From an uncultured Elusimicrobia bacterium (GTDB lineage Bacteria; Elusimicrobiota; Elusimicrobia; Elusimicrobiales; Elusimicrobiaceae), in contig CAMZGO010000017.1 in NCBI GenBank assembly GCA_947306425.1, forward strand, positions 1 through 33,176: a DNA stretch of 33,176 nucleotides, in the 5' to 3' direction. A program made the translations under genes and the position numbers. Shown piece by piece: positions 6,250 to 10,965 of the stretch. Position 1 is the first letter of the stretch. Each line of letters begins with the position of its first letter. A model generated the notes under the pieces. The model saw nothing but the letters and a program-made list of their open reading frames with translations. It was not told the DNA's origin and did not search any database.

Positions 6250-7191
6250 TTATGCTTTATTGCCGAAATTTGACAAATCAAAACCTTGCATAATTTTTTC
6301 CATTAAAACATCTATTTGATTTTCAATATTTTGGGCATAATTTTGCTCTATGTTTAATCTAAAGACATCGGGCAAATGCATAGGAACAAACTCAAGCGGA
6401 ACCTCGTTTTTTACTTTATATTTTGGTGCCCATTCTAAGAGAATTTTATTATATCTTTCAGCCTCTTCTATGTATTTCTTTTTGTGTGCATTTTTTTGAT
6501 ACCAATCTTCAATAACTTTTTGCACAGCTACCATGCATTCTACCTTTTCATAATTCCCTCTTCTTTGATATTCTTCTAACCATCGTTTTGCGTATGCTTT
6601 TGCATCCACAGGGGTTTGCGGTGCTAAGTGGTAGCGGTAAATAGAACCTACTAGTTTAAGCAAATTAGCGTCATAATTCTCAATCAAATATTCAAGTACC
6701 CCAACTTGACCTTCTTTAACAGCCTGAAAGGCCTGTGTTAAAAACTCGTCATTAAATAGATCTTCCGCTATCTTATAGATACCATTATCCAACAAGTAAC
6801 CATAACCACCCTCAGTAATTAATGCCTCAAATAAAGGTTTATTGTTCAAGAGCAAGGCAAAAGTAGGCATATTTACCGCGGCCATATCACGAAACTCATA
6901 GCCAAAGCCCTGCTCAATCTTAGGGTCTCTATCTGTACCATACCTAGGATAATCACATTTCCATATTCTATTAGGATCAGCACAATATGCCAGCATTTCT
7001 TTTATATATTTACCTCTATCATGTCTTTCCCCCATAGCCCACTTAAGATTGGGGGAAAGATTTTTACCTGCAAATCTTCTATAATAATCCTCATATACAT
7101 TATTATCACAATAGTTTTTATCCAAAGCATTAGCAAACATAGGAAACAATGCTAATGCGAATATAACTGCAAAAAAATATTTTATTTTCAT
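6250..7191 (-). CDS. Exported protein of unknown function
   Basis: The 313-residue protein has a clear Sec signal peptide (residues 1-22, MKIKYFF... ending AN-A) and no other membrane segment. Residues ~95-180 contain helical pairs such as LLLNNKPLFEALITEGG and VKEGQVGVLEYLIENYD, which look like degenerate ankyrin-type repeats, but I would not assign the fold from this alone. The remainder is Lys/Glu/Tyr-rich and helical. A good Shine-Dalgarno AGGAG lies 5 bp before the ATG and overlaps the end region of the upstream gene, whose stop is 11 bp away, so the two are one operon. A terminator follows. A periplasmic or surface location is expected. I do not recognise a family. Confidence 0.75.
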   Translation of the reverse strand: MKIKYFFAVIFALALFPMFANALDKNYCDNNVYEDYYRRFAGKNLSPNLKWAMGERHDRGKYIKEMLAYCADPNRIWKCDYPRYGTDRDPKIEQGFGYEFRDMAAVNMPTFALLLNNKPLFEALITEGGYGYLLDNGIYKIAEDLFNDEFLTQAFQAVKEGQVGVLEYLIENYDANLLKLVGSIYRYHLAPQTPVDAKAYAKRWLEEYQRRGNYEKVECMVAVQKVIEDWYQKNAHKKKYIEEAERYNKILLEWAPKYKVKNEVPLEFVPMHLPDVFRLNIEQNYAQNIENQIDVLMEKIMQGFDLSNFGNKA

Positions 7192-7202: not shown

Positions 7203-8753
7203 TTATGCAGCAGCGTTTTGTTGCCCTGCCAATAATTCAGTTTTTTGTTTTTCTAATTCTTCCACAAATTTCTTAAACGAATTAGGTGTAAAAATAGGCC
7301 CTTGCAATATAATTGAGGCTTCTTCAGGATTAGCTACAGTATATCTGTTAACTAAGTCGTTTTCAGTTAACAAAGCCCTTGAAAATTCATCCATAGTTGA
7401 AGTATCAATATATATTTTCTTATCTGACAGATTAACTATCATTTTCTCTATAGTACCTATATCACCTTCTATGCTATCAACTGATTTTTGGATATTTTCA
7501 TCCACATCATTGATAGGACCATAAACACCTAAACTGCTTCCACGTCTAGTTTTAGTAATTTTTATAGGTGCAATGACGCCGACAGACTCTCCCTTAGAAA
7601 ATTTATAGGAACTAACCTGTCCCCATATCTCATACTCTGACCCTTTATCTGCACGTATAAAAACCATATCAGCTTCATCTTCGCCATCAACTATTTCGTA
7701 ACTACCATCTTGATTTCGTTTAACTTCCATAATTACAGTTTCATAATTCTGTCCTTCTTGTGATTTTTCTTCAGGTTCATCTTTTTTAACACCTATCTCT
7801 TGTTGGGCAGTTACCTTTGCTTGCGCGGCAATACCTTGAGGGGTTAAATCACCATCACCAGTTTGAGAAGTGTCATTGCTGCCGCGGCTGCCGCCGTTGT
7901 AAACACCTCCTGACGAACCGCCGGCAGTAGAAGAAGGTACTTCAATATTTAAGTTGATATTTTTTAGGTTTGCATAGGCCTCACTTAAAGCATTATCATC
8001 AAAACCCTTATCTTTCAAAGAAGCAGATATTGCGGAACTGCCGCCCATATTACCGACTGCACCTGTTCTGTAAGCATTTGCCTGATAGTTTTGATATGCC
8101 GGCGCAACAGGTGTATTAGCGGTATTTTTTGCTTTCTCTTTCTGTAATGTTTGTAAAATCTCAATATCATTTGCATTCGGCATACGTTTTTTGGCTGCTA
8201 AGAATTCCTGTTCCGATACAGTATTTTGCACCAATTCTCTATACGGTACATGGCCTTTTGGGGTTACTATATACTTTTCCCCTTTTGCATCTTCTATGAC
8301 TTTATAATCGTTGCCGTTAACTTTGACATAACCCTTAATCGGACTGTTTGATTTGCTGTAAGCATTAGAATAAGAATTACTTGCCGCTGAAATAGTAGAC
8401 GGTTGTGTTGAAGAAGATTTATCAGAACTATATCTTTTTGAAGATGCAAGCAAGGTGTTATCTTGTGAAGTCAAACCGGCGGAAGAACTTTCTTTATTAA
8501 ATACGTGATGATTGGCAACTTTGCCTTTTATAGCAGATGTTCTATCCTCGGCGGAAGGCCTGGAAAAACCATAAAAAGAAGCAATCCTATCGGCCAATCT
8601 TGAAATCGGATTAGCCTGATAAGGCATACCCGACTTAACGGCAAACGGGGAAAAGTCCTCCTCTTCCTGATTGCCGTAAATAAAAGGAAGCGTAAAAAAA
8701 GCGATAAGCACCACCAACGCTATTTTACCTGAATTCTTTCTTAAAAAACTCAT
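7203..8753 (-). CDS. Membrane-anchored low-complexity protein, function unknown
   Basis: The 516-residue protein has an N-terminal basic stretch and one hydrophobic helix (about residues 10-28), so it is either exported or anchored. Residues ~35-320 are rich in Ser, Asn, Ala, Gln and Gly, with a short GSSGG-type run near 280, and are probably disordered or wall-spanning. A more ordered C-terminal part (~330-505) includes a beta-rich segment (YEIVDGEDEADMVFI, YEIWGQVSSYKF) and ends in a helical, Lys/Glu-rich tail. It is the first gene of a two-gene operon with the exported protein at 6250-7191. The promoter at 8808-8835 and an AGGTGG ribosome site precede the ATG. No family is recognised; a scaffold or envelope-complex role is only a guess from the domain layout. 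Confidence 0.75.
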   Translation of the reverse strand: MSFLRKNSGKIALVVLIAFFTLPFIYGNQEEEDFSPFAVKSGMPYQANPISRLADRIASFYGFSRPSAEDRTSAIKGKVANHHVFNKESSSAGLTSQDNTLLASSKRYSSDKSSSTQPSTISAASNSYSNAYSKSNSPIKGYVKVNGNDYKVIEDAKGEKYIVTPKGHVPYRELVQNTVSEQEFLAAKKRMPNANDIEILQTLQKEKAKNTANTPVAPAYQNYQANAYRTGAVGNMGGSSAISASLKDKGFDDNALSEAYANLKNINLNIEVPSSTAGGSSGGVYNGGSRGSNDTSQTGDGDLTPQGIAAQAKVTAQQEIGVKKDEPEEKSQEGQNYETVIMEVKRNQDGSYEIVDGEDEADMVFIRADKGSEYEIWGQVSSYKFSKGESVGVIAPIKITKTRRGSSLGVYGPINDVDENIQKSVDSIEGDIGTIEKMIVNLSDKKIYIDTSTMDEFSRALLTENDLVNRYTVANPEEASIILQGPIFTPNSFKKFVEELEKQKTELLAGQQNAAA

Positions 8754-9004: not shown

Positions 9005-9033
9005 TTGGCGCGCTTTGTGATATTTTATATAAT
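9005..9033 (+). promoter_or_regulatory. Promoter of tRNA-Ser
   Basis: TTGGCG (9005-9010) and TATAAT (9028-9033) are separated by 17 bp; the mature tRNA begins 14 bp downstream of the -10. Confidence 0.7.
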
Positions 9034-9046
9034 ATAAGTAGAGTTT

Positions 9047-9135
<89 letters not shown>

Positions 9136-9170: not shown

Positions 9171-9545
9171 ATGGCGGAGATTATGAAAGCAAACTGCTTT
9201 GCTTTCATAGGGATTTGAAGGGCGGAGCCATATCCGAGTTTGAGCGCGAGCCTTTTAGGCGAACGCGAAAGGCGAGGATGGCGAGCCCCGGGGTGGAGGA
9301 AAATTCCGTCAGGAATTTTACCGTAACCCAAATTCCTCCCTCACAAACTCTTAGCGGGGTTTTAAATTTTCAGGGAGTGGAGCGACTTAAACTGTGAGGG
9401 CACAGCGCCCCGCTGCTTTAAGTCGCGTCGGAATTTGAAGCCCGCAGCGATGTGTGAGTTTTGCCGAAGGCAAAGGCGAACACCGCGAGGGCAGGTCCGA
9501 GCAAAATTTCCGTCAGGAATTTTACCGTAAGCCAAATCCCTCCAT
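9171..9545. repeat. Repeat array with tRNA 3'-end-like pieces
   Basis: This ~400-bp gene-free stretch follows the tRNA. It starts with a 12-bp perfect inverted repeat, TATGAAAGCAAA / TTTGCTTTCATA (9182-9209). Two related units then follow. Each opens with a reversed T-arm-like piece (GGGATTTGAAGGGCGGAG near 9210; GGAATTTGAAGCCCGC near 9429). Each contains the same 23-bp core beginning TTCCGTCAGGAATTTT (9304-9326 and 9508-9530). Each ends with a forward T-arm-like piece (CAAATTCCTCCCTC near 9329; CAAATCCCTCC near 9533) that matches the tRNA-Ser 3' half. The spacing of these ends is about 205-212 bp. Short ORFs here are not convincing. It may be a miniature tRNA-associated repeat family. Confidence 0.6.
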
Positions 9546-9606
9546 CCTTATCTAATCAAAAAAAGTTAAACTGATACATTTTTCCGTCGTGGGGTTTAAA
9601 TGCCTC

Positions 9607-9637
9607 TTGACAACCTTTTTTTTTTTTTTTCTACAAT
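9607..9637 (+). promoter_or_regulatory. Pilin promoter with a T15 tract in the spacer
   Basis: A perfect -35 TTGACA (9607-9612) and a good -10 TACAAT (9632-9637) are 19 bp apart. The spacer is ACC, 15 consecutive T (9616-9630), then C. A spacer of 17 is optimal, so loss of two T would strengthen the promoter and slippage could vary its strength. Confidence 0.65.
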
Positions 9638-9686
9638 ATATATAGTAAGTAATAAAAACGCCATAAAAGTTAAATTAGGAGATTGT

Positions 9687-10205
9687 ATGAAAAATAAATC
9701 AGGCTTTACTTTAATTGAGTTATTAGTTGTTGTTTTAATTATCGGCATACTTGCCAATATCGCTTTGCCCAAATATAGAATATTTAAAGAAAAAACGCGT
9801 GCCACGTCAGCCATACAAGCTCTCCACATGATTACTGATTCTATGGAACGATATTATCTAATTCACAATGAATTCCCACCATCTACTGGGTACAGTAATT
9901 GTAAAGATCTTAGTCAGTACCTAGATATAGATTTTAATGGTATCAAGTATTTTGATCAATGTTTTTATGACAACTATACTGTACATGCGGATCGTTGGTT
10001 AAGTAAAGTTTCAACAACTAACAGATACCATATAGTAAAAAACTATAGTTATAAAGATAGTCCTTGGCGCAACAAAGGATTCATTTGTTGGATTTATGGA
10101 CCAGATAATACCTTAGCAGCAGATGTTTGCCGGAATTTATGCGGAGTCAAAGATTTGTTTCGTGTAACATGGGGTTCTGAATTAGGTTGTTATATAAAAC
10201 CATGA
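9687..10205 (+). CDS. Type IV pilin-like (pseudopilin) protein
   Basis: The 172-residue protein has a textbook class III leader: a short basic peptide MKNKSG, then FTLIELLVVVLIIGILANIA. Prepilin peptidase would cut after Gly6 and methylate Phe7, and Glu11 (the +5 Glu) is present. The hydrophobic N-terminal helix is followed by the alpha-spine (residues ~30-60) and a Cys-containing globular domain with six or more Cys, which probably form disulfides. It is expected to be assembled or secreted through type IV pilus or type II secretion machinery, none of which is nearby. The frame is open upstream from 9600, but the ATG at 9687 is the start because AGGAG (9677-9681) precedes it and the leader begins there. 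Orphan pilin-like genes are typical of Elusimicrobium. Major pilin, minor pilin and pseudopilin cannot be told apart here. Confidence 0.92.
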   Translation: MKNKSGFTLIELLVVVLIIGILANIALPKYRIFKEKTRATSAIQALHMITDSMERYYLIHNEFPPSTGYSNCKDLSQYLDIDFNGIKYFDQCFYDNYTVHADRWLSKVSTTNRYHIVKNYSYKDSPWRNKGFICWIYGPDNTLAADVCRNLCGVKDLFRVTWGSELGCYIKP

Positions 10206-10220
10206 TTTTTATCAAACTAA

Positions 10221-10257
10221 AAAACACCCGCGGGATTTAACTCCAACGGGTGTTTTT
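10221..10257. terminator. Bidirectional terminator between pilin and rplY
   Basis: AACACCCG (10223-10230) and CGGGTGTT (10247-10254) form an 8-bp stem with a 16-nt loop. T-rich tails lie on both strands (TTTTTA on +, TTTTTTAG on -), so it can serve both convergent genes. Confidence 0.8.
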
Positions 10258-10290
10258 ATTGTTTTTAACTTAAAAAATAATTCGTTAAAA

Positions 10291-10965
10291 TTATTTCTTT
10301 TCTGCCGGTTTAACAGCGGCACCTTCCTCTTCTTTCTTACCTTTTGTGGCAGAAAGTTCAGGTTGTGCGGCTTCAGTTCCGGCGGCAGCAGCAGGTGCTG
10401 CGGTGGCTTCTTCGCGCGGCATCATGATGTGGACAATCATCTTATCAGGTTCACCTAAGAAAGTTACACCTTTCGGGGCAACGATATCGGCTAAATTAAT
10501 ATGTTTATCCAAAGTTAAGCCGGTAATATCAACGGTAATTTCATGCGGAATATCGGCAGGTAAACATTTAATTGCGACTTCCCTAACAGTATGGTCAACA
10601 ATGCCGCCGTTTTCTTTAACCCAAGTACATTCGCCTGTTAAGACGATTGGTACAACGGTTTCAAGAGGTTTATCCATAGAAATTCTTTGGAAATCAACGT
10701 GTATCGGATTATCAGTTACAACATGATATTGAACTTCTTTGATAATAGCATTTTCATTGCCTTTAGGTAAGGCAATTTCAACTATAGCATTACTGCCTGC
10801 TTTTTGAATTTCAGCCAAATCTTTTTGAGAGATGGTTATAGAAATCGGTTCTAAACCTTCACCATACAAGACCGCAGGAATATTCTTTTGGGCCCTTATC
10901 TTTGAAAGTTCCCCGCGAACACCGGCCTTTTCTCTAGGCTGAGCATTAATTTTTACTTTTTGCAT
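10291..10965 (-). CDS. rplY: 50S ribosomal protein bL25, long (Ctc/TL5) form
   Basis: The 224-residue protein binds 5S rRNA in the large subunit. It starts MQKVKINAQPREKAG and has the N-terminal L25 beta-barrel (~1-95) with IPAVLYGEG and NPIHVDFQRI, then the TL5/Ctc C-terminal beta domain (~100-185) with VKENGGIVDH and INLADI. A ~40-residue Ala/Glu/Lys tail ends it. The length matches the two-domain CTC form, not the short E. coli L25. A strong GGAGGAAG ribosome site precedes the ATG. It is the last gene of glmU-prs-rplY, an order known in many bacteria (often followed by pth, which is absent here), and a terminator follows. Confidence 0.96.
   Translation of the reverse strand: MQKVKINAQPREKAGVRGELSKIRAQKNIPAVLYGEGLEPISITISQKDLAEIQKAGSNAIVEIALPKGNENAIIKEVQYHVVTDNPIHVDFQRISMDKPLETVVPIVLTGECTWVKENGGIVDHTVREVAIKCLPADIPHEITVDITGLTLDKHINLADIVAPKGVTFLGEPDKMIVHIMMPREEATAAPAAAAGTEAAQPELSATKGKKEEEGAAVKPAEKK

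Follow-up and report, generated by a model that had tools for sequence, protein, structure and literature searches.

Poly-T promoter spacers before type IV pilin genes of an Elusimicrobium-type bacterium resemble an array of slippable switches

The subject of this study is a promoter with a run of 15 T residues in its spacer, which precedes a type IV pilin-like gene in a 33,176-bp stretch of DNA (hereafter the window). The window is contig C17 of the source genome G000, a metagenome-assembled genome (MAG) of an uncultured Elusimicrobium-type bacterium that comprises 1,437,240 bases in 21 contigs. The promoter and its gene are arranged as listed below, where class A denotes promoters with a linker of 2-4 nucleotides between the -35 hexamer and the T run.

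9607-9612, + strand: -35 hexamer TTGACA, read from the window sequence and recurring across the genome
9613-9615, + strand: linker ACC, of class A, whose paralogues mostly have ACG or AGC instead
9616-9630, + strand: T15 tract, the proposed slippable element
9631, + strand: single C between the tract and the -10 hexamer
9632-9637, + strand: -10 hexamer TACAAT
9638-9686, + strand: 5' leader with AGGAG at 9677-9681; the spacing would place the transcription start at about 9644
9687-10205, + strand: type IV pilin-like gene of 172 amino acids, ATG at 9687, prepilin start MKNKSGFTLIE, PF07963 match

The -35 hexamer agrees with the consensus at six of six positions and the -10 hexamer at five of six, and the 19-bp spacer reads ACC-T15-C, with the homopolymer between the two boxes here as in the promoter family described below. 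A first-pass annotation of this DNA had proposed a perfect -35, a good -10, and a T15 run at 19-bp spacing, and its coordinates are exact on the window sequence. The T15 run is the sole homopolymer of at least nine residues, of any base, in the whole window. Because the consensus promoter scanner accepts only spacers of 16-18 bp, it does not list this promoter. The annotation had also named a surface pilin as the target, in agreement with the match of residues 1-23 of the downstream product to the N_methyl family PF07963 (E=1.8e-8), which covers the cleavage/methylation motif and the hydrophobic helix.

The window T15 belongs to a class of promoters that extends over the whole genome and is present in part of the family Elusimicrobiaceae. 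G000 contains 108 PF07963 matches, and a DNA search of the genome with window positions 9300-10400, in which 40 of 139 candidates were scored, listed 50 places, mostly the segment from promoter to pilin start together with some other repeats. All 55 runs of at least 12 T residues in the genome lie inside the same architecture of -35, T tract, and -10. Fifty of them are within 200 bp upstream of a same-strand N_methyl pilin start, three are interrupted by a contig end, and the remaining two stand before the genes of two exported paralogues, 452 and 468 amino acids long (L261 at C1:254195 and L262 at C4:94461), whose promoters carry T15-CTACAAT as in the pilins and a TTGCGG-like -35 at 19 bp. 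From Markov models of low order built on the window, 7-54 such runs are expected genome-wide, depending on the order. As this makes their number unremarkable, we dropped chance as an argument on the count and argue from position alone; their placement before pilins stays surprising. The pattern TTGACN{1,6}T11N{1,8}TANAAT gave 46 matches in G000 and none with a reversed control. The T run is a pure homopolymer throughout, although its flanks fall to about 30-40% pairwise identity.

An in-frame stop codon stands between the T run and the start codon in 51 of the 54 T-tract pilins of G000. Frameshift switching is thus rejected for the family, and the tract should act on transcription if it acts at all. 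Among the three exceptions is the window copy, whose frame is open through the tract (open reading frame (ORF) 9600-10205). The N_methyl match and four PF00437 secretion/pilus ATPase matches in G000 suggest that the T-tract pilins may be exposed on the cell surface.

Within the genus, 6 of 18 genomes have the same pattern, and within the family 19 of 90, with no reversed-control match; it reaches 81 sites in G036 and 58 in G044. When runs of at least nine T were accepted, 38 of the 340 phylum genomes had matches, and these were concentrated in two of the family's genera. These counts are lower bounds, since TANAAT misses the TACAGT and TAAAGT forms found in G072 and G013. A pilin ORF comes after 48 of the 50 sites with at least nine T in G000 (the other two are cut by contig ends), 34 of 38 in G036, 21 of 24 in G044, and 7 of 10 in G012. 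Pilins above the cut-off occur in all 90 family genomes, often 80 or more, with at most 80 scored per genome; a first look gave 238 and 257 PF07963 candidates in G021 and G037, both of which are free of matches to the T9+ pattern. No match was found in the viral contigs scanned with the pattern. A pattern scan for a second assembly of the source species returned only the rumen MAG RUG13237 (uncultured Elusimicrobium sp.; contigs CADAFA010000017 and 71), which we took to be G012, a different species of the same genus. Two further observations concern individual relatives. At loci L202, L210, L212, and others in G044, a repeat resembling GTCATTGCGGGCGTGGACCCGCAATCCAG closely follows the T-tract promoter, and at L123, L126, L130, and L134 of G012 T-tract promoters are joined to pilin sequence from which the start region is apparently lost, either as decayed copies or through misassembly.

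Spacer lengths in G000 set the T-tract promoters apart from the other promoters of the genome. Among 33 non-T consensus promoters, taken from 41 pattern matches and perhaps including some false ones (a reversed control gave 25), spacers of 13, 14, 16, 17, 18, 19, 20, and 21 bp occurred 4, 3, 3, 9, 5, 6, 1, and 2 times, respectively. The first-pass annotation had remarked that the loss of two T residues would bring the window promoter to the optimal 17 bp; that arithmetic is right, and 17 bp is indeed the commonest spacer of the native non-T promoters. By contrast, none of the 49 T-tract promoters with at least 13 T and a recognised -35 has a spacer of 17 or 18 bp; sites lacking a TTGA[CT] or GTGA[TG]T -35, such as C18:170 and C4:66190, are outside this count. 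Class A, which includes the window promoter, accounts for 33 of the 49 sites, with T14-T16 or T19 and spacers of 19-25 bp, whereas class B, which has no linker, accounts for 16 sites with T13-T15 and spacers of 14-16 bp, mostly 15-16 bp.

Good boxes at 19-20 bp, which 28 of the 49 sites possess and which are also seen in other species, might suggest promoters that depend on an activator, in which a regulator twists the long spacer open in the manner of MerR. MerR-type sites require a dyad operator. There is none in the 19-bp spacer ACC-T15-C, a pure T15 run offers no place for one, and the 16 sites at 14-16 bp do not fit a long-spacer mechanism. We therefore consider a MerR-type promoter highly unlikely.

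Our preferred explanation, which we hold with moderate confidence, is that the roughly 55 T-tract promoters form a multi-gene family of homopolymer contingency loci, in which slippage resets promoter strength pilin by pilin. The T15 run would be a contingency element in the spacer of a sigma-70-type promoter. Slipped-strand mispairing during replication would add or remove T residues within the population, altering the distance between -35 and -10 and with it the strength of the promoter. As class A spacers, mostly 19-20 bp, and class B spacers, mostly 15-16 bp, flank the native 17 bp rather than match it, most alleles would give little or no transcription, and a gene could be turned on by one or two slips. 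Since nearly all of the promoters drive separate pilins with a conserved N-terminus and a very diverse C-terminal part, a cell line could in this way shuffle which pilins it makes, and such switching would be the advantage of the arrangement. In the T-tract pilins, the mean frequency of the commonest residue is 0.88 at positions 1-30 and 0.31 at positions 111-172.

The change of tract length was followed between paralogues or between species, each species being represented by one genome. The clearest evidence comes from G033, in which 17 promoters of the form TTGACCCG-Tn-[C/G]TTACAAT are near-identical outside the tract but carry T7, T9 (two copies), T10, T11 (three), and T12 (ten). Their aligned 75-bp leaders have substitutions in 32 columns and a single internal indel in one copy. 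T length differs in 87 of the 136 pairs, as against any leader indel in 16 of 136. Between these paralogues the tract thus changes faster than its flanks, and a tandem pair in G044 (299 bp, 95.3% identity, one gap), with tracts of T12 and T13, agrees. In G000 the lengths lie mostly within one residue of T15. There, the fraction of pairs that differ in T length is flat over flank divergence (0.47-0.72 in the well-filled bins), as would be expected from quick saturation of length and equally from holding near T15. Eight locus pairs between species share at least 250 bp of matching DNA and have tracts of T15/14, 13/14, 15/14, 18/7, 15/15, 15/15, 16/16, and 14/14. Three of them were read closely: the first (G012 versus G000) is clean, with T15 against T14 between near-identical flanks; the 13/14 pair has differing sequence around the promoter; and the G012 copy of the 18/7 pair no longer has its start region.

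Several results weigh against the slippage explanation. Tract length is equal in four of these eight pairs. Lengths in G000 are tight, with T14-T16 in 46 of 52 sites (T14 in 12, T15 in 29, T16 in 5, T19 in 2, and T6, T7, T9, and T13 once each). Relatives also have a 19-20 bp class, built from a shorter run and a longer linker (in G042, a linker of 5, T12, and 2), which suggests that the total spacing is itself constrained. Moreover, the promoters of genus g2 are mostly at 16 bp, a usable spacing that would make switching unnecessary. These points would suit a fixed structural promoter, in which a stiff A-tract spacer sets the strength of a co-regulated pilin family, selection holds the length, and slippage is a mere nuisance. 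The modal length is species-specific (15 in G000 and 12 in G036, G044, and G033), the commonest spacing in relatives is 16 bp (47 of 92 strings outside G000, G036, and G044, counting listed strings only and excluding those with a distant second TANAAT), and A-tract function would likewise need a pure tract. However, it is hard to fit a single optimum to a genome in which classes of 15-16 and 19-20 bp both have consensus boxes and the 17-18 bp interval between them is empty, and the T7-T12 length classes among the otherwise near-identical G033 promoters also speak against a held length. On balance, we judge a fixed promoter rather unlikely. For the phase variation that the first-pass annotation had suggested, the promoter architecture, the pilin target, the some 50 paralogous promoters, and a T run that outpaces its flanks in relatives are all favourable, whereas the tight lengths of G000 do not suit its simple on-off picture.

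A technical origin must also be considered, as tract lengths in a MAG may be unreliable and their apparent uniformity or variation an effect of assembly. Ten of 42 contig ends lie no more than 200 bp from a T-run site or a cut pilin start, where about 0.7 would be expected, and this clustering indicates that the assembly struggles there. The ends at T-tract promoters or cut pilin starts are the right ends of C3, C11, C10, C21, C19, and C1 and the left ends of C9, C7, C11, and C18; those at the right of C3 and C11 fall inside a T run. On the other hand, about 50 similar repeats would break contigs anyway, and the architecture recurs across 19 family genomes with empty reversed controls. We consider an assembly effect on the tract lengths highly unlikely.

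Promoter type barely tracks the pilin protein tree, with 31 changes against a shuffled mean of 35.0 (54 of 500 shuffles as low), in a tree that is weakly resolved and in which three non-T rows are cut by contig ends and possibly mislabelled. C-terminal bodies are up to 74% identical across T-tract and non-T loci (C4:113530 and C4:119431). At one orthologous locus, L138 of G012 has a T15 promoter, while L080 of G000 (C10:900-2250) has an RNA leader, and the two share an upstream flank at 87% DNA identity and a pilin body at 79% amino acid identity over 124 residues. Judged from these alignments, the difference between L138 and L080 is an exchange of the control module.

The leader at L080 belongs to a larger group. 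In G000, a leader some 240 nucleotides long that ends with an intrinsic terminator precedes many of the non-T pilins, and structured RNA leaders lie upstream of non-T pilins at L077, L066, L071, L088, L092, L099, and others in G000 and at L268, L269, L272, and L276 in relatives. An alignment of 17 leaders, with a structure derived from one of them, contains 64 pairs in eight helices, and 84.5% of the cells are paired. Double-sided changes number 163 cells, compared with 58.8 (sd 6.4) after shuffling and none of 500 shuffles as high. The structure has a covariation score of 0.429, whereas slid versions do not exceed 0.177. In all 21 leaders that could be extracted by a motif rule, the loop of the terminator can form at least seven contiguous Watson-Crick pairs (8-13) with a junction upstream of it, but the same holds for only 17 of 420 mismatched combinations; in relatives, this pairing occurs in seven of eight leaders in cis and in none of 56 mismatched combinations. 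An Rfam search of leaders from 22 sources at E<=1 gave no fitting family. The element is probably an undescribed pilin attenuator with a copy-specific kissing helix of 8-13 bp. More tentatively, and with rather less than even confidence, we propose that Elusimicrobiaceae pilins use two exchangeable 5' modules, a slippable T-tract promoter and a pseudoknotted terminator leader of about 240 nucleotides with its own kissing helix of about 10 bp per copy, between which the pilin bodies move. Pilins with closely related C-terminal parts are often found under different modules. Such a system would join homopolymer phase variation, RNA attenuation, and cassette exchange in one form of diversification.

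The surroundings of the window locus bear on exchange as well and comprise the following features.

9005-9033, + strand: tRNA promoter TTGGCG-17-TATAAT from the consensus promoter scan, a housekeeping comparison with a 17-bp spacer
9047-9134, + strand: tRNA-Ser(CGA), left border of the putative pilin insertion site
10220-10257, no strand assigned: inverted repeat AAAAACACCCG...CGGGTGTTTTT, an inverted self-match that separates the convergent genes for the pilin and rplY
10291-10965, - strand: ribosomal protein L25/TL5 (rplY), right border of the putative insertion site

The inverted repeat is probably a two-way terminator. In the relative G005, tRNA-Ser adjoins rplY with no pilin in between, and in G012 the gene that converges on rplY encodes another pilin (31% identity), the contig ending just downstream of the place expected for a promoter. 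Because one relative lacks the pilin and another has a different one there, the window pilin probably represents a unit that was inserted or can be exchanged. The intergenic DNA from tRNA-Ser to the pilin contains repeat units at 9172-9340 and 9423-9541, which recur in G000 at sites such as C11:30508 (92%), C3:98041-98405, and C13:10091. Elsewhere in the window, the minus-strand proteins encoded at 6250-7191 (313 amino acids) and 7203-8753 (516 amino acids) have no Pfam match at E<=0.01. The tRNA is the only Rfam match in the window, whose pilin is of the T-tract class.

The known homopolymer promoter switches are mostly those of pathogens and mostly control one or a few genes each. The T-tract set described here looks like a large array of slippable surface-gene switches. 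If this is true, some 50 loci in the 1.4-Mb genome of a gut-type bacterium serve one type of switch for a single class of surface fibres, and the fifty loci running in parallel would offer unusual power to relate slippage rate, spacing, and expression within one genome. In searches of the literature on Elusimicrobium and its phylum for pilins and phase variation, judged mostly by title and abstract, no report of pilin phase variation in the phylum was found.

Among the known systems, the Bordetella fim genes encode chaperone-usher fimbriae. They resemble the T-tract family in that fim2, fim3, and fimX are fimbrial subunit genes with promoter homopolymers, but they number only a handful, are not type IV pilins, and carry a C-tract that works with an activator. 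The promoter C-stretches of fim2 (C10-C15) and fim3 (C13-C18) vary among strains, with changes in transcript (PMC1891110). The promoter C-tract of opc in Neisseria meningitidis tunes transcription, and its length had shifted in 5 of 17 clones (PMC6389960); it shares the promoter homopolymer, but belongs to a single gene, is poly-C, and has no pilin family. The first-pass annotation had drawn its parallel with sabA of Helicobacter pylori, in which a promoter T-tract of T5-T22 among strains, most commonly T13-T17, alters RNA polymerase binding; this tract adjoins the -35 and shifts UP-like elements (PMC4081817). The parallel is imprecise, since the sabA tract stands beside the -35 and the window tract inside the spacer between -35 and -10. 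A rheostat geometry of the sabA type is rejected here, because the window tract begins 3 bp downstream of the -35 and not upstream of it. By this comparison, vlp, opc, and the Bordetella fim genes, in which designs of this sort are proven, are nearer to the window promoter than sabA is, and they lend support to the contingency reading. In the vlp system of Mycoplasma hyorhinis, each surface lipoprotein gene has an A-tract in its promoter region, and indels in it switch transcription (PMC10502178). Like the T-tract pilins, the vlp genes form a multi-gene surface family in which every member has a promoter homopolymer of its own. However, vlp comprises few genes, with seven variable lipoproteins known, and all are for lipoproteins, whereas the T-tract family belongs to an uncultured Elusimicrobium-type bacterium and numbers about 50 type IV pilins, for which switching is proposed from sequence.
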